Origin: a virus
Length of the DNA stretch: 22,620 bases
Virus record (IMG/VR): IMGVR_UViG_3300013133_001731
Coordinates: 1-22,620 of that record
Strand: one strand, 5' to 3'
In this document: positions 12,493 through 20,857 of the stretch, in pieces
Numbering within the stretch: the stretch's first letter is position 1
Layout of the letters: each line of letters opens with the position of its first letter
The notes under the pieces: model-generated
The model's input: only the letters and a program-made list of their open reading frames with translations
What the model was told of the DNA's origin: nothing
Database searches by the model: none
Translations under genes and position numbers: made by a program

Positions 12493-13188
12493 TTAATCCT
12501 CTCGATTGCCAAATAGATTAAGTAGTGATAGGAATATATTAATAAAATTCAAATACAATGTCAAGGCTCCCACAATCTCAATATTACCGTTGTTATCTAC
12601 ACTGACTTCTTCACGAATACGTTGAGTATCCCAAGCAGTCAATCCCAGAAAGATCACCACAGCCAATGCTGAAATCACCATAGCCATAACACTGCTGCCA
12701 ATAAAAATATTAATAATACTGGCAATGATGATACCAATAAGACCAATAAACATAAACTGGCCAACACTTTCCAAACTTCGCTTGGTAAAATATCCGTATA
12801 GACTCATTGTTCCGAATAAAACAGCAGCACCCATGAAAGCACTAACAATACTACCTAATTTAAAAACCACAAAAATACTAGCAAAACTCAAGCCCATCAA
12901 TGCTGCAAAACCATGCAACATCAACAAAGCAATTTCTTTGGGAGGATTTTTATTCAGTGCCACACCAATAGCAAACACTGCCACAAGAGGCAGAAGCATT
13001 GTGACAAATTTCATCCATCCTGTAAAGAAAAAGCTCATCAATCCCGGACTGAGACTGACGAGAAAACTCACTAACATGCTGGTAATCACTGCCAATGCCA
13101 TATGATTATAAACACGCAACATGGCGTTGTTGATTTCACTGGCACTGCGATACAATTTTACTTCATCACTGGTCATAATGTTCATCAT
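12493..13188 (-). CDS. Bax inhibitor-1 / YccA-family membrane protein
   Basis: This 231-residue protein has about seven hydrophobic helices and ends with the family's typical GALTLYLNFINIFLSLLNLFG segment, preceded by FLGLTAWDTQRIRE (about 185-198), the conserved L-T-x-x-D-T-Q-x-I block. Bacterial relatives include YbhL and YccA. YccA modulates the FtsH protease, and others act as pH-gated calcium leak channels. Two adjacent ATGs occur; the first (13188) is 12 nt from AAGGAG. It sits between folE and the QueD gene with small gaps of 16 and 6 nt. A direct part in base modification is not obvious. It may protect phage membrane proteins from FtsH or keep the host alive, which is inference. Confidence 0.88.
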   Translation of the reverse strand: MMNIMTSDEVKLYRSASEINNAMLRVYNHMALAVITSMLVSFLVSLSPGLMSFFFTGWMKFVTMLLPLVAVFAIGVALNKNPPKEIALLMLHGFAALMGLSFASIFVVFKLGSIVSAFMGAAVLFGTMSLYGYFTKRSLESVGQFMFIGLIGIIIASIINIFIGSSVMAMVISALAVVIFLGLTAWDTQRIREEVSVDNNGNIEIVGALTLYLNFINIFLSLLNLFGNRED

Positions 13189-13888: not shown

Positions 13889-13927
13889 ATTTGTTCTCCT
13901 TACTCAAATATCGATATATTGTTGATT

Positions 13928-13956
13928 TATGTTGAGATCTATCATACCTCAACATA
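13928..13956 (-). promoter_or_regulatory. Hairpin in the folE leader
   Basis: A perfect 9-bp inverted repeat, TATGTTGAG (13928-13936) and CTCAACATA (13948-13956), with an 11-base loop, lies between the glycosyltransferase stop and folE. There is no T-run after it on the minus strand, so it does not look like an intrinsic terminator. The expected late transcription start (near 13953) falls in the upstream arm, so only read-through RNA would form the full stem. It could protect or process RNA. Confidence 0.6.
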
Positions 13957-13958
13957 GA

Positions 13959-13966
13959 TATTTATC
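13959..13966 (-). promoter_or_regulatory. T4-type late promoter box, GATAAATA, before folE
   Basis: The minus strand reads GATAAATA overlapping the stop codon of the GT-B gene, in the 76-nt gap before folE. Start of transcription would be near 13953, giving a leader of about 65 nt. The same one-base variant appears at 4293 and 5370. Confidence 0.5.
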
Positions 13967-15158
13967 AATACTTCTGTTGTCTTAGATATTTGCGATAATC
14001 ACTGCTATCTCTGATATATTGTTGACCTTGCCCTGTCATGATATCAATGATTCGATCGATGGTACCGTCGGTCCAATCACTGATTTGACCTTGCCTGACA
14101 TGTGGTTGAGTCAACAATGGCATGAGTTTTCTAATGGCATCATCCAATGACCAAGGCACATACATTCTTTCGTGGTCATTGGCCAATGTCTCAGGAAAAC
14201 TACGATAAGCTGGAAATAACACGTTGCACCCCAACGTATCAGCTTCACTGACAGTATTAGATACCCAATCTTGCAATGCACAATTAAACAATACACGAGT
14301 ATTATTCAACATTTTGTAGTAGGTATTTTTGTCGAGATTTTCGTAAATAGTCAAAAGACCCCGTTGTTCGAGATCTCGAGTTCTTTGCATGTAGCTAGAG
14401 TTATTGCTTTTGAGTTTACCGCCAGAAAAAATTGCAAATTCAATACGTCGATCTTGTGATAAACCATTGAGATCATGTCTACGATTCCATTCTTCGATGA
14501 GATCCATGTAGAAGTCTGGTTGTTTTTCTTGATCCCATCTAGCTGCGAATCCCACACGCAGTGGTCGTTGATTGAACGGTTGCAGTTGTGGCACTCTTTC
14601 CAGCACTTCTTGCTTGCCAAATGCCAAACCAGAAATATTATAGATTGGAGCAGACCAACCAGCAATACGCATATGTGCTACCATTTCTTCATTGGTGGCT
14701 AAAATCGCAGTGGCAAATTCGTTGACCATTTTTTCATAATGGCCCATCCACGTCGACATGCCCCAAACATGAACGAAATCGTCAGGGTCAATAGTTTGTG
14801 CAAGGCAGCGAATATAAATGCGAGGACGCATATTGCCAGGGATTTGATCGAGAATATAAGGTAAGCTCTCGATACCGGGTTGAAACATGTCTTCAAAATA
14901 GACCACATCTTGATCAGAGACCTCACCATTGCGCATCATTTTAACAAGATTCATCATTTGGCTCATACCAAAATATGAGCGTCCGTGGGCATCTAAAACT
15001 TGTCCCACTGAGATAGCTTGAGAATTGTCCAGTGTTTGTCCGGGCACATAGACCACATCAAGTCCTCGACGATCAAATACTCTCCGATTCCATTCTGTGA
15101 GTTGTAGAGTATATCTTTCTTGGTATGGCTCTAACATCATATAGATCAACTTACGCAT
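13965..15158 (-). CDS. GT-B fold glycosyltransferase (GT1/GT4-like)
   Basis: This 397-residue protein looks like a two-domain GT-B glycosyltransferase. The N-terminal acceptor half starts KLIYMMLEPYQERY. The C-terminal donor half opens with LRVGFAARWDQEKQPDFYMDLIEEW (about 199-223), the usual start of the nucleotide-sugar domain. It continues with LLTIYENLDKNTYYKMLNNTRVLFNCALQDWVSNTVSEADTLGCNVLFPAYRSFPE, carrying the Glu-rich signature of retaining GT4-type enzymes. No signal peptide or membrane helix is seen. AAAAAGG lies upstream of the ATG. It sits between the T-fold protein region and folE. In T4-like phages such enzymes can glucosylate DNA bases, so a modified-base acceptor is a candidate. 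Cell-surface sugar is the alternative. Confidence 0.82.
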   Translation of the reverse strand: MRKLIYMMLEPYQERYTLQLTEWNRRVFDRRGLDVVYVPGQTLDNSQAISVGQVLDAHGRSYFGMSQMMNLVKMMRNGEVSDQDVVYFEDMFQPGIESLPYILDQIPGNMRPRIYIRCLAQTIDPDDFVHVWGMSTWMGHYEKMVNEFATAILATNEEMVAHMRIAGWSAPIYNISGLAFGKQEVLERVPQLQPFNQRPLRVGFAARWDQEKQPDFYMDLIEEWNRRHDLNGLSQDRRIEFAIFSGGKLKSNNSSYMQRTRDLEQRGLLTIYENLDKNTYYKMLNNTRVLFNCALQDWVSNTVSEADTLGCNVLFPAYRSFPETLANDHERMYVPWSLDDAIRKLMPLLTQPHVRQGQISDWTDGTIDRIIDIMTGQGQQYIRDSSDYRKYLRQQKY

Positions 15159-16370: not shown

Positions 16371-16906
16371 AATACTTGATCTTGCTCATAGTTGGACCAG
16401 TCAGTGAAAACTGTTCTTTTTGTCAAATCACTAAGTTGATGACACCAAACACCAGGATTGGTTTTGGCAAAATCAATGTCATCGATTTTTAATACTGCAT
16501 TATAACCCAATAAATTGAGATAAGGAATCGGTGCACTGATTATGGGAATAAATTTATTATTTTCGCAGAAACCCGATTCCAATAGTCCTTCGACTTGACC
16601 AATGTGAACATCAAGACTGCACCACAAATTTTGTGATAGACAACTGTCAATCATTTTTTCCCATTGGTGCCAATTTTCGTAGTCGTCGGTGGTAATTAAT
16701 TTGGGAAAACTTTGATTAGCACCAAAGTAAATATGAGTAATGTGTTGGTCAGGGTCAAGATATTCTTGAGATTTTTTTACAATTTTTAAAATTTCTTCCA
16801 CTGATTGAACACCCACAACAAACAAGGTCATTCGACCATGAGCCGGAGTAAATTCAACTTCTCGCCCAATGAAAAAATCTTTGTCATCATGATCGGGTCT
16901 ATTCAT
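16367..16906 (-). CDS. Unknown protein, 179 residues, translationally coupled to dpdA
   Basis: The ATG overlaps the TGA of dpdA (ATGA). The protein begins DFFIGREVEFTPAHGRMTLFVVG. It continues with ITHIYFGANQSFPKLI, WEKMIDSCLSQNLWCSLDVHIGQVEGLLESG, FIPIISAPIPYLNLLGYNAVLKIDDIDF and NPGVWCHQLSDL. The alternation of strands and helices and several buried Asp/His residues suggest an alpha/beta enzyme or a degenerate TIM-barrel-like fold. I cannot name a family. Strict coupling to DpdA makes it a prime candidate partner, for example a DNA-targeting subunit, or an enzyme acting on the inserted base. This is inference from position only. Confidence 0.75.
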   Translation of the reverse strand: MNRPDHDDKDFFIGREVEFTPAHGRMTLFVVGVQSVEEILKIVKKSQEYLDPDQHITHIYFGANQSFPKLITTDDYENWHQWEKMIDSCLSQNLWCSLDVHIGQVEGLLESGFCENNKFIPIISAPIPYLNLLGYNAVLKIDDIDFAKTNPGVWCHQLSDLTKRTVFTDWSNYEQDQVL

Positions 16907-18582
16907 TTTTGTTCCAATAGTTCCAGTAAAGTTGGGTCAAAGTCTTGTTGATCACAATCTTGGTCTATATCGATGTCTTGAGGATTTTCGGGTTCAAACA
17001 GTGAATTAAATACATCAGTATTGGGTCGCTTGAGTTTTTTACCAGTAAATCCTCTTGTGCCAATGATCTGATCAAAACAAGATTCATAGTATTCTATACG
17101 TTCAAGACTTTTTTGTCTATCTTTTTGGCTAAAAATATCATCAACAATTCGTCGAAAATCATAGTGTTCATCGGTTGATCCGGCCAACATCAAGGGCATT
17201 TGGTTATTTTGATAAAGTTGGTTAGCAGTTTGAACCGCATTGATATGATGCCAAACATTATGCGACATCAACAATGCGTAACTAAAACTATCCCAACTGG
17301 TATTACCAATATTACCTAATTTGTTTTTGTCATTGGGACCATAATAACAAATATCCGAAATTTTACATAGTTGAGAAACAGGACTGTCATCAAATACTTG
17401 ATGTATACCATCTTGTATCACTGTGTCACGAAACGATCTATGGTCATTTTTATATTTTTTGTCATCAGCCGTGGGTTCCATTCGATATACCCATTTAGAT
17501 CTGTGTTGACAGTCATTGTGAATATATAGTTGTCCATTGGCAGTGGCTAGAAATGGACTGGCACAATCAAAACTGATTGTGAAATTGGGGTTGTGATATT
17601 TTCGCACAGAATTTTGTATATCTGTCAATAGACAAGCCCATTCCAATTTGCTCGTGCCTAAGAAATGCATCCAATCATGCACCCCGGTTTGCAATAGCCC
17701 ATCATGTATGATATCAACTAGTCGCTTTAATACTAGATGGACATCACACATATTCTGACCCCCCATAGCCCATCCATCAAAATGTCGTCCTGGGTAGTGT
17801 TGGGGATCACAATAGTGTTTCATAGTTTGATACCATTGTTCAGCACTGGTATGATTATCACCTTGTAACACATTGAGAATTCGTGTACCACCATTTTCAA
17901 CACCACGACGATTATTGATAAAATATTCGTTGTTGTAGCGTGTGGCATCTACAGCTTCTTTCAATGTGGTAATACCACAAGCTCGTCCAGCTTCTTGATC
18001 ATGTATAACCCATGTGGGTATGTCCAATGTCATACTGTAATCGGCAATACTGTCTAACCAGGTCAATACTGCTCTACGACGTGCCTCAGTGGCATCAATT
18101 AATTTTTGATATTCGGCCACCGGATCAACTGTCACAGTGCGATTTTTCTTTTTGATTGTGGTTGTGCCCTGTGCCCTTAATTCAGCAAATTTTGCAGCAA
18201 CTTCTGCACTGTTGGGATCACGCCATTCACCTGGCCAACGAGCTTTGGCTATTTGAAAGCCCCCACTGTCACCCAACATAAATGTGCCAGGTTCTCTCTG
18301 GCGGACCATGTCTTCGCTGGGATCTGATTTAGTGAGATCCAAATTGGCATGTCCGGCACTATATAAGCTCCAACGATAAGGAAACAGAGCTTGTTGGCTA
18401 TTAAGCCAATTAAGTTGTTCCATGTCAGTAAGTCCTTGTGGAAAACGTGCAGGATCAACATAATTGCCCACACGTTGTCGGCCAATGAAAGTGGCATAAA
18501 ATCCAGAGATAGCTGGCAAAAAAACCGCCCATTGGCTGAGCCCATTGGGTCCTGTTTGTTTAGCGGTGAAATCGTCTTGCAT
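16903..18582 (-). CDS. dpdA: DpdA-type DNA 7-deazaguanine transglycosylase (TGT superfamily)
   Basis: This 559-residue protein is built like tRNA-guanine transglycosylase but is much longer than the usual 370-400. The key TGT positions are present. MLGDSGGFQ (Asp105) corresponds to TDSGGYQ, MTLDIPT (Asp187) to the base-reading Asp, and NVLQGDN (240) to VQGG. GWAMGGQN (about 270-277) corresponds to the GGL glycine pair, and ISFDCASPFLATANGQLYI (Asp339) to the catalytic nucleophile segment FDCVxPTRxARNG. A zinc-like set (CKISDIC, then LLMSHN) follows. DpdA enzymes exchange guanine in DNA for a 7-deazaguanine and protect phage DNA from restriction. Co-occurrence with folE, queD, queE and yhhQ supports DNA over tRNA as the target. 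AGGAAA lies in the end of the preceding nuclease gene. The next gene overlaps by 4 nt. Confidence 0.88.
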   Translation of the reverse strand: MQDDFTAKQTGPNGLSQWAVFLPAISGFYATFIGRQRVGNYVDPARFPQGLTDMEQLNWLNSQQALFPYRWSLYSAGHANLDLTKSDPSEDMVRQREPGTFMLGDSGGFQIAKARWPGEWRDPNSAEVAAKFAELRAQGTTTIKKKNRTVTVDPVAEYQKLIDATEARRRAVLTWLDSIADYSMTLDIPTWVIHDQEAGRACGITTLKEAVDATRYNNEYFINNRRGVENGGTRILNVLQGDNHTSAEQWYQTMKHYCDPQHYPGRHFDGWAMGGQNMCDVHLVLKRLVDIIHDGLLQTGVHDWMHFLGTSKLEWACLLTDIQNSVRKYHNPNFTISFDCASPFLATANGQLYIHNDCQHRSKWVYRMEPTADDKKYKNDHRSFRDTVIQDGIHQVFDDSPVSQLCKISDICYYGPNDKNKLGNIGNTSWDSFSYALLMSHNVWHHINAVQTANQLYQNNQMPLMLAGSTDEHYDFRRIVDDIFSQKDRQKSLERIEYYESCFDQIIGTRGFTGKKLKRPNTDVFNSLFEPENPQDIDIDQDCDQQDFDPTLLELLEQK

Positions 18583-18586
18583 TAAA

Positions 18587-20059
18587 TTATTTCCTATAAT
18601 AGATTAAGTTACCACAGTCCCATATTCTATAATATCCGTTCAAGGACATGTTTTGGTATTCGCTGAGATCTGGATCGTATGTTTTTAATTTTTTTTCTAA
18701 TAGATGTTTCTGAAATTGGTTTCTAGATAACATCAATTCTGGATCATTGAGGTGAAAATATTTATAGTTAGGCGATGATTGTCCCACTATTTCAAACCCT
18801 GCTGATTGATATAAATTGTTGTTAATATTAGTGGACCATCGACGATCGGCATAAGATATCAACGAATTTGGTCCATGAGTTTTGTCAAAATAATACAATA
18901 TTTTTGATAAACCGCCGACCACTGAGTGATATTTTTTAGAACAATATCTCAACAGTTCAAAATCAAAAGATCGGTTAAATCTAGAATTACCAAATCCAGC
19001 TGCTGCAATTAATTGGTCATTATAAAATAATCCTATTTTTATTCTACTAGATATTGCACCTTGCAAATGATTTTGTTCAACAAATGCTTTATAAGACTGG
19101 TTATCAATTTCTTTTACTTGACATTTTCTTGCTGGTATCTTGACACTGTTGCCCAACAAATGGTTTAGTTTGCTTTTTATTATATCGTTTTTTATGGGAT
19201 CATTCCATTCTGTGTCATAGATATGTAATAGATGTATGTTTTGTTTTTCGCATTCTAGAGTTTTGCTTATATGATATTTTTTTGATTTGCCCTTTTCTTC
19301 GCAATGCCAATATATTCCATTGACTTCTATAGCAAGATTTTTTTCAGGTAACCATATGTCGATTTCTTGTGATGTTAAAATCTTTCGATTGCTTTGTTCA
19401 ATAACTGTGTCAGTGATATTTGACAAATATTCTATTATGTCTTTTTCGACTGTTGACATAGAATGTCTAATCACCGACAAATCGTTCTCAGCAAACAAGT
19501 TCAGTATAGGAGTAGGTGATACCCTTAACTCTTCTGCGATTTGTTTACAAGATTTTTTAAGTTCATAATGTTGATGTTTGAGCCACTCAATGTCTTTCAT
19601 CAAATGCAAAGATTCTTGAGATATATGTATTTGTTTATTGGTGTTTCTACCAAATTTTTCTAAATTGGTTTTCTTACGTTTTTCTAGTATAAAATCCTTT
19701 TGAGTTTCAAACCGTTCAACTGCACTTTTTTGAATTTTTTCAACGATCTCTGGACTTTTACTGGGATTGTCTACTCCGTAATTGGCAACAAACGTTGCTC
19801 GCATTTTTTCTTTGACTACAGGACTTTTTGAGGGATTATCAACTCCATATTTGGCACGAAATGTATCAACCAGTTTTTGTCTTGACTCGGCATTGTGCAT
19901 GGGATGCCCACCAAATTTATTGATATTGGTTTTTTGTTTTTTTTCTAATATGTCTGGATCGATGCCCATGCACTTATTACTGCACCAATCCCAATACTGG
20001 TTTCGACTTTTTACGAATCTGGTGACTAAATTACCACAAATCTTACACTGTTTATCCAT
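18587..20059 (-). CDS. Free-standing homing-type endonuclease: Zn finger, repeats, Vsr-like nuclease, Mom-like GNAT
   Basis: This 490-residue protein has four parts. Residues 5-30 form a CxxC...CxxxC zinc knuckle. Residues 45-140 hold repeated KYGVDNPSKSP-type units, as in the DNA-binding parts of homing enzymes. A helix-turn-helix (CKQIAEELRVSPTPILNLF) spans 171-189. Residues 230-300 carry a Vsr/PD-(D/E)xK-like nuclease (EIDIWLPEKNLAIEVNG, WHCEEKG, HLLHIYDTEW). Residues 305-440 resemble the Mom-like GNAT domain fused to many phage homing nucleases (FVEQNHLQGA, LLRYCSKK, VVGGLSKIL, ISYADRRWS). It is inserted between the clamp gene and dpdA, looks even more AT-rich than its neighbours, and is probably mobile. 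Its ribosome site (GAGGTATTCAAT) is buried in a hairpin (20059-20113). The stop is 4 nt before dpdA. Confidence 0.85.
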   Translation of the reverse strand: MDKQCKICGNLVTRFVKSRNQYWDWCSNKCMGIDPDILEKKQKTNINKFGGHPMHNAESRQKLVDTFRAKYGVDNPSKSPVVKEKMRATFVANYGVDNPSKSPEIVEKIQKSAVERFETQKDFILEKRKKTNLEKFGRNTNKQIHISQESLHLMKDIEWLKHQHYELKKSCKQIAEELRVSPTPILNLFAENDLSVIRHSMSTVEKDIIEYLSNITDTVIEQSNRKILTSQEIDIWLPEKNLAIEVNGIYWHCEEKGKSKKYHISKTLECEKQNIHLLHIYDTEWNDPIKNDIIKSKLNHLLGNSVKIPARKCQVKEIDNQSYKAFVEQNHLQGAISSRIKIGLFYNDQLIAAAGFGNSRFNRSFDFELLRYCSKKYHSVVGGLSKILYYFDKTHGPNSLISYADRRWSTNINNNLYQSAGFEIVGQSSPNYKYFHLNDPELMLSRNQFQKHLLEKKLKTYDPDLSEYQNMSLNGYYRIWDCGNLIYYRK

Positions 20060-20113
20060 ATTGAATACCTCGCATGCAATATATTTATTTATGACTCAGG
20101 CGGGTATTCAATA
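20059..20113 (-). promoter_or_regulatory. RBS-sequestering hairpin upstream of the homing endonuclease
   Basis: On the minus strand TATTGAATACC (20103-20113) and GGTATTCAATA (20059-20069) form an 11-bp perfect stem. A CGC/GCG pairing extends it by 3 bp across one bulged base. The downstream arm holds the ribosome site and the A of the start codon. RNA read through from the clamp gene would therefore hide the start. The 33-nt loop region holds the late promoter box, so late RNA lacks the upstream arm. This is the same logic as reported for T4 e, soc and I-TevI. Confidence 0.85.
20082..20093 (-). promoter_or_regulatory. T4-type late promoter box (CATAAATA overlapping AATAAATA)
   Basis: The minus strand reads CATAAATA (20086-20093) with a second overlapping AATAAATA (20082-20089). 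Both are one base from the T4 late consensus. Expected starts are near 20080 or 20076, inside the loop of the hairpin and after its upstream arm, leaving the ribosome site free. Confidence 0.65.
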
Positions 20114-20131
20114 GGATTATTTTAAAACAAT

Positions 20132-20857
20132 TTATTTAGTGTAAGCCGAAAGACTATAATTGTAAGTGGCCAATCCAGAATTCACAGTGATTTGCATGGC
20201 ACCCACATCGCTAATGCGAATATATTTGTCGCCGGCCAAACTCAAAATTCCAATGATTTGATTAATCGGCCATGACCAACTGTTTTTTAGTATTCCGCCG
20301 ACATCAGGTTGAAACACAAAGTTTCCTGCATGACTACTGTGATTGCCAAAATGAAATTTCAAATCATTGTTTTTAGTTTCGGTTCGAAAAACTGTTTCCT
20401 CGGCATTGGCTTGAGCCTGCATTTTGAGTCTTTGTATGGAATTCACACTGGGTTCAAATTCTATACACCATGCAGGTTGTTTGAGATTATAAGTTTTGAG
20501 TTGTTCATCTATGATTTTGGCAGACATAAATCGATAGCTGTTATGAAAATCTCCCAAACTGTTTTCAAAATTAATACCGTCCAGCAATTGATCACTGGCT
20601 CGCTGTGACACACTGAGTTTGGCATTTTCTCGATATTCGGGCAAATTCAATAAAATTTTCAATTTATTGAGATTTGGCATTCCAAATGTGCCAGTGAATT
20701 CTGTAACAGCCTTGGCGAATTCACCATGTAATACCACAGATTTATCTTCGGCCATGGAATAGATTCGAGTTTGGTCTTGTGTTCCGGTGATTTTTATCAA
20801 ACTAATAAAACCTAGATCATAGGTATGTTGAACTAGGTCTAACAATTGGTCTCTCAT
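20132..20857 (-). CDS. 45: Sliding clamp, T4 gp45-like DNA polymerase processivity factor
   Basis: I choose the ATG at 20857, which has a perfect AAGGAG six bases upstream. A frame starting 16 codons earlier runs back into the methyltransferase gene and lacks a ribosome site. The 241-residue product is close to T4 gp45 in size. It shows the phage-clamp pattern: LLDLVQHTYDLGFISLIKITGT, RIYSMAEDKSVVLHGEF, and MPNLNKLKILLNLPEYRENAKLSV, like the gp45 LNGFLGILSL segment. Later it has AWCIEFEPS and, near the end, IIGILSLAGDKYIRISDVGAMQITVNSG. The trimeric ring tethers polymerase and, in T4, also activates late transcription, matching the late boxes seen here. It lies 31 nt after the methyltransferase-like gene. 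Confidence 0.85.
   Translation of the reverse strand: MRDQLLDLVQHTYDLGFISLIKITGTQDQTRIYSMAEDKSVVLHGEFAKAVTEFTGTFGMPNLNKLKILLNLPEYRENAKLSVSQRASDQLLDGINFENSLGDFHNSYRFMSAKIIDEQLKTYNLKQPAWCIEFEPSVNSIQRLKMQAQANAEETVFRTETKNNDLKFHFGNHSSHAGNFVFQPDVGGILKNSWSWPINQIIGILSLAGDKYIRISDVGAMQITVNSGLATYNYSLSAYTK

Follow-up and report, generated by a model that had tools for sequence, protein, structure and literature searches.

A presumed homing-site copy, a putative late-type promoter and a predicted RBS-sequestering hairpin share the leader of a phage EDxHD endonuclease gene

The window analyzed here is a 22.6-kb record (22,620 nt, a fragment) of an uncultured T4-like phage with its main genes on the minus strand. 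A database search returned no near-identical phage records for it, and the DNA polymerase of a relative is closest to those of T4-like jumbo myoviruses (Sinorhizobium phage Phosso and Agrobacterium phage Atu_ph07). The locus of interest is made up of the following genes and sites.

20132..20857, minus strand: tail-terminator-like gene, the conserved left neighbor of the insertion site (weak PF23932 match, PHROG 12062)
20060-20131, minus strand: leader of the endonuclease gene
18587..20059, minus strand: gene for an EDxHD (Vsr-like, Hef-type) free-standing homing endonuclease of 490 aa, with its ATG at 20059-20057
16903..18582, minus strand: DpdA/TGT-like gene, 559 aa, the presumed homing target
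18247..18270, minus strand: the window's own dpdA site, GACAGTGGGGGCTTTCAAATAGCC, diverged, with Ser codon AGT and Ile codon ATA

The nuclease had been called Vsr-like in the initial annotation, and this assignment was borne out by membership in PHROG 3339 (homing endonuclease, E=1.9e-121) and by a profile match of residues 205-293 to the EDxHD type structure I-Bth0305I in PDB (3r3p, E=1.5e-7). Residues E232/D234/E245/H252/H263 are conserved across six endonuclease members, the N-terminus carries a cysteine cluster (C5, C8, C26 and C30), and the protein shares 38% identity with its Hef-like counterpart in Acinetobacter phage KARL-1. Its subfamily consists of five members (n=5), found in the window (W) and in contigs L002, L105, L106 and L110, with W and L002 counted as one lineage. 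The endonucleases of L002, L105, L106 and L110 share 75%, 55%, 52% and 51% amino acid identity with that of the window, respectively, and no further members emerged when the collection was searched with the subfamily alignment.

The dpdA-like gene starts 4 nt past the endonuclease stop codon, with its Shine-Dalgarno (SD) sequence (AGGAAA) located inside the end of the endonuclease gene. The 559-aa product contains the LGDSGGFQ motif of tRNA-guanine transglycosylases; searches of PDB and Pfam gave no match for it, and its L106 homologue matches TIGR00449 tgt_general weakly (E=0.002). Also among the window's genes are those for GTP cyclohydrolase I, a QueE-like protein and a Vut_1/YhhQ-like transporter, and a QueD-like protein is encoded by a relative. 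From the motif, the weak TGT match and the GTP cyclohydrolase I/Que-type genes we infer that the 559-aa protein is DpdA-like. Members of the DpdA family insert 7-deazaguanines into phage DNA (PMC6884629). Elsewhere in the window, the phage gene at 12493-13188 encodes a membrane protein of the Bax1-I family (PF01027, E=2.6e-53).

All five endonuclease genes are located between the tail-terminator-like and the dpdA-like genes. The endonuclease is absent there in the other sampled relatives, in which the interval is 2-20 nt in length (a 19-nt gap in L017, for example) or contains assorted other DNA. The interval itself looks like an insertion hot spot, holding 0-1.7 kb of varied DNA (as in L022, L030 and L071). 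Free-standing homing endonucleases usually cleave one of their two neighbor genes in genomes that lack them (PMC6083498), and the layout beside the dpdA-like gene is the usual one for such enzymes.

The leader and its surroundings contain several overlapping elements.

20103..20113, minus strand: 5' arm of the hairpin, TATTGAATACC, with outer AUCC at 20114-20117 and inner CGC at 20100-20102
20059..20069, minus strand: 3' arm of the hairpin, GGTATTCAATA, holding the SD and the A of the ATG, with outer GGAU at 20054-20057 and inner GCG at 20071-20073
20068..20071, minus strand: Shine-Dalgarno GAGG, 8 nt before the ATG and inside the stem by sequence and fold
20086..20093, minus strand: T4-late-type promoter CATAAATA in the loop, the conserved one, identical in L002
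20082-20089, minus strand: overlapping AATAAATA in the loop, not kept in L002
20093..20116, plus strand: putative operator GACTCAGGCGGGTATTCAATAGGA, an inverted (relative to the genes) copy of the dpdA-like DSGG(F/Y)QI codons
20890-20895, minus strand: TAAATA promoter of the tail-terminator-like gene, with the same element in L014; proposed source of read-through

The two arms of the hairpin pair perfectly over 11 bp and are separated by 33 nt, and folding extends the stem by 3 bp (CGC/GCG) across a bulged A at the inner end and by four pairs (AUCC/GGAU) across a bulged U20058 at the outer end. The 11-bp repeat and its three inner pairs covering the ribosome binding site (RBS) and the A of the ATG had been described before, while the outer four-pair extension had been missed; with it, the SD, the whole AUG and codon 2 are placed within the stem. 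An 11-bp repeat is by itself unremarkable because about 0.5 are expected per window by chance: perfect inverted repeats with an arm of at least 11 and a loop of 3-60 numbered three in the window versus 0.5 per dinucleotide-shuffled window. It is the placement of the hairpin over the RBS, not the repeat itself, that is exceptional. Opening the RBS (−15 to +3) costs 23.6 kcal/mol in the read-through RNA versus 6.6 kcal/mol in the predicted late RNA. Among 116 leaders of the window and a related contig, for which the median is 4.6, the former value is the highest, and none of 200 upstream shuffles attained it. The leader has no Rfam match, and a search of viral and bacterial genome collections with the exact-arm pattern found only the known relative. 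Extra matches of the 18-mer CCGCCTGAGTCATAAATA in viral contigs L004 and L006 lie within an unrelated coding gene and were set aside as chance. Scanning other EDxHD leaders for a hairpin gave a single weak candidate, in L119 before 1207 (13.0 versus 0.9 kcal/mol in the short RNA), the loop of which has a TATAAT-like sequence without TAAATA.

That a late promoter is nested in the loop, as the initial annotation had proposed, is supported by two copies of ATAAATA at 20086-20092 and 20082-20088. TAAATA, which forms the core of late promoters of the T4 type, is more enriched upstream of genes in the window and the relative than any other hexamer (21 versus 2.8 expected, P=3e-12), although ATAAATA alone is no more frequent in the window than in shuffled sequence. 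A T4-type late system is plausible because a T4 gp55-like sigma gene is found in two larger contigs of the group, those of L105's phage (E=4e-9) and of another relative. Of the two overlapping elements, CATAAATA is favored as the promoter because L002 retains only the first TAAATA, and T4 spacing predicts a late RNA start at about 20080.

Read-through from a clamp gene had also been suggested. No clamp was identified, and the genes upstream of the endonuclease are those of a DNA polymerase, a 305-aa ORF and the tail-terminator-like protein. Given that the tail-terminator-like gene has a TAAATA of its own, the read-through RNA to be silenced may in part be late as well, which weakens a role of the hairpin in early/late timing.

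TAAATA elements were also encountered in other settings. In several genes of the related contig (L012 14336(+) and 14294(-), L013 5358(+), and L015 ~2515(-) and ~11183(-)), TAAATA ends about 5 nt before the ATG and an SD is absent, so these may possibly be leaderless mRNAs from late-type promoters. At L012 ~14294-14337, two divergent genes each start with ATGATTGG and have mirror-image TAAATATTTCA promoters between them, so that a long, nearly perfect inverted repeat is formed and opening the RBS is very costly. At 13889-13965 of the window, a hairpin (TGTTGAGGTATGATAGATCTCAACAT) precedes the GTP cyclohydrolase I gene just past a TAAATA; it is kept in L013 and has no Rfam match.

The one syntenic relative carrying the endonuclease, L002, is 77% identical to the window at the nucleotide level over 1.1 kb. 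The longest identical run in this 1.1-kb alignment is 34 nt in length and comprises the 5' arm, the linker CGCCTGAGTC and CATAAATAAA. The invariance of the linker from the 5' arm to the promoter goes beyond what a T4 late promoter requires. The 3' arm, GGTATTCAATATGG, is identical as well, while the 3' part of the loop between promoter and 3' arm differs by a 7-nt indel and substitutions. The stem of L002 amounts to 12 bp with CCC/GGG at its inner end, and opening its RBS costs 19.3 kcal/mol in the long RNA versus 2.0 kcal/mol in the short RNA (rank 4 of 116 leaders). Alignment of leaders from related phages had been suggested as a way to look for compensatory changes in the stem. Stem and promoter are kept in L002, but only the inner end of the stem differs, and no covariation can be counted because the 11-bp arms are identical in W and L002, the two hairpin-bearing phages. 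Judged by RBS-opening cost, a strong hairpin is absent from the leaders of L105, L106 and L110, the subfamily members with 51-55% identity; the hairpin is therefore lineage-specific, and the earlier suggestion of a transferable control unit is not upheld.

A second relationship links the leader to the gene downstream. The 24-mer GACTCAGGCGGGTATTCAATAGGA is identical at 20 of 24 positions to the dpdA site of L105, GACTCAGGTGGTTATCAAATAGGA, which is its best non-self match in 1.16 Mb; a match as good anywhere in the 1.16 Mb was obtained by 1 of 300 permuted 24-mers. The hairpin's 5' arm is drawn from this copy, which directly adjoins the promoter. The initial annotation had missed that the 5' arm belongs to a copy of downstream-gene sequence, and its overall interpretation is thus supported in part. 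Variants of the element occur in all five subfamily leaders, although those of L105, L106 and L110 are otherwise unalignable. L105 has the copy in direct orientation, the leaders of W, L002, L106 and L110 have it inverted, and the occurrence of both orientations points to recognition of DNA, not RNA. The dpdA site that the leaders resemble lies about 300 nt downstream of the endonuclease gene in the five carriers.

When the five leaders were each compared with two dpdA genes, the DSGG site gave the best match in 9 of 10 tests, as opposed to 0 of 124 other EDxHD leaders and 2 of 228 leaders of other genes. In a second set of 79 dpdA loci, the five best matches were all on the DSGG site. Taken by itself, the match between the L106 leader and the L106 dpdA site does not reach significance (84 of 300 shuffles were as good). 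A site profile trained on endonuclease-less dpdA genes recovered the L105 leader as the third distinct non-trained match but missed that of W, the right half of which is nearer to the L105 allele. A comparison of other EDxHD leaders with their flanking sequence gave candidate copies in 13 of 66 cases at P<=0.05, but several of these are AT-rich or internal repeats. Before 1471 in L118, the leader has a 15-nt sequence (TTGAACCGAAAGTAG) with a perfect inverted copy about 190 nt upstream. Outside dpdA, the profile gave a 17-bit match at L012 9973 (-), possibly in another TGT-like gene or by chance.

Four of the endonuclease-bearing phages have a readable dpdA gene, and in each of them the Ile codon of the site is ATA; of 125 unique endonuclease-less alleles, 3 have ATA (P=6e-5 counting three lineages, for a contrast noticed after looking), although ATA accounts for 24% of the Ile codons in these genes. 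The window's own dpdA site is presumed to be a resistant homing site. In the leader copies this codon is ATA in W/L002, L105 and L106 and ATT in L110; the ATA codons of genes and leaders would fit a resistant allele and an operator that is bound but uncut, a post hoc reading over three lineages. The AGY Ser codon of the window's dpdA was considered as a resistance mark and rejected, with 24 of the 125 unique endonuclease-less alleles having AGY too. Since the GACTCAGG core persists in the dpdA genes of L105 and L106 themselves, immunity would depend on few bases.

A similar arrangement is known for I-TevI of T4, the operator of which resembles its homing site, overlies a late promoter, and is bound but poorly cut (PMC2988022). 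As predicted for the window, the RBS of I-TevI is hidden by a hairpin in read-through RNA and the late RNA lacks the 5' arm (PMC2988022). The leader sequence at the late promoter resembles the homing site in I-TevI (15/20 identity; PMC2988022) and the presumed homing site in the window (20/24 identity to the L105 site). By contrast, I-TevI is an intron-encoded GIY-YIG enzyme whose operator function has been tested, while the window's enzyme is free-standing, of the EDxHD type, and known from sequence; and the site copy in the window is inverted and is itself the hairpin 5' arm.

We regard it as probable that the leader exerts an I-TevI-like double control, in which an autorepression operator mimicking the presumed homing site is combined with a hairpin that stops bypass by read-through. 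According to this scheme, three layers packed into about 65 bp would govern the endonuclease gene inserted between the tail-terminator-like and dpdA-like genes. The T4-type late promoter CATAAATA would drive the endonuclease. Read-through RNA, coming from the DNA polymerase gene or from the neighbor's own late promoter, would fold so that SD and AUG are shut in the stem, while RNA from the nested promoter would be devoid of the 5' arm and hence translatable. The 24 bp that form the 5' arm and reach the promoter would, as a copy of the presumed dpdA homing site, serve as an operator to which the endonuclease would bind without cutting, thereby repressing its own promoter. The hairpin would be needed because read-through RNA, late RNA included, would otherwise bypass the repressed promoter. 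The stronger proposition that a single 24-bp target-site copy acts both as DNA operator and as 5' arm of an mRNA-silencing hairpin, and that the I-TevI scheme was here re-invented independently, and more compactly, by a nuclease family of unrelated structure, seems to us evenly balanced.

Could the inverted repeat be meant for DNA recognition alone? If the repeat represented opposed endonuclease half-sites (GGTATTCAATA) flanking the promoter, it would form a bipartite operator with the RNA hairpin as a by-product, and the presence of the right half of the site copy (GGGTATTCAATA) in both arms agrees with this, as does the fact that the five subfamily leaders have the element, not the hairpin, in common. 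We nevertheless think it unlikely, as the 3' arm falls precisely on the SD and AUG, the inner and outer pairs across bulges fit RNA pairing, the stem outdoes nearly all other leaders in strength, and L105, L106 and L110 have one copy instead of two. The converse possibility, a plain late promoter/RBS hairpin whose likeness to dpdA is a relic of insertion or repair without a present role, appears similarly improbable. The hairpin statistics and the known precedents (PMC2988022, PMC3014915) speak for it, but the element is kept, in both orientations, by otherwise unalignable leaders, and a relic should decay, yet the element lies within the longest identical run of W and L002. It is very improbable that the element is a second cleavable target or a decoy by which the enzyme is attracted to its own leader, for instance in aid of cassette transfer: the element does resemble the presumed homing site, but cutting its own leader would be self-destructive for the enzyme's gene, and ATA, the variant of endonuclease-bearing alleles, is present in the copies of W, L105 and L106 (though L110 has ATT). 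A chance repeat, or an attenuator or terminator of the upstream gene, can hardly be credited either despite the roughly 0.5 perfect 11-bp repeats per window expected by chance, since a promoter/terminator scan called no terminator at the leader, a T run is absent after the stem, the stem overlaps the RBS exactly, and it is conserved in L002.

The hairpin part of the favored reading has further precedents. The hairpin/late-promoter switch has been documented for I-TevI, I-TevII, I-TevIII, segB and Aeh1 mobE as well as for e and soc (PMC2988022, PMC3014915), so that the cases initially cited (e, soc and I-TevI) are correct but incomplete, I-TevII, I-TevIII, segB and mobE having been left out (PMC2988022). 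Like the window's gene, Aeh1 mobE and T4 segB encode free-standing endonucleases with an RBS-sequestering hairpin and a late promoter (PMC2988022, PMC3014915), but they are HNH and GIY-YIG enzymes, respectively, and the reviews PMC2988022 and PMC3014915 make no mention of a homing-site-like operator for either. Because mobE is a free-standing HNH enzyme, a different nuclease class with this switch was already on record (PMC2988022). T4 e and soc also have a late promoter nested in an RBS-hiding structure (PMC3014915), but they are structural or lysis genes with no nuclease operator. Within the window endonuclease's own family, Hef of phage U5 and the Hef-like proteins of KARL-1 and Acj9 (31-38% identity) are likewise free-standing, and Hef too adjoins the gene it is thought to cut, nrdB (PMC2988022). 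Their insertion sites, nrdA/nrdB and head genes, differ from that of the window, and U5 hef overlaps nrdA and has no such leader. In the literature searched, outside of which most subscription journals fall, we came across neither a description of such control for EDxHD enzymes nor a homing endonuclease directed against dpdA. What appears to be new in the window is the I-TevI logic in a different, free-standing nuclease family, with putative operator and 5' arm formed by the same nucleotides.

Taken together, these results suggest that layered control of the I-TevI type arose again in an unrelated nuclease family, which would imply strong selection on homing endonucleases to be late and self-limiting. 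The presumed target is a dpdA-like gene, probably involved in DNA base modification, and would be hit at a conserved active-site motif. If the operator reading is true, the leader reveals the homing site without cleavage data, and comparison of leaders with flanking genes may expose the targets of other free-standing endonucleases.
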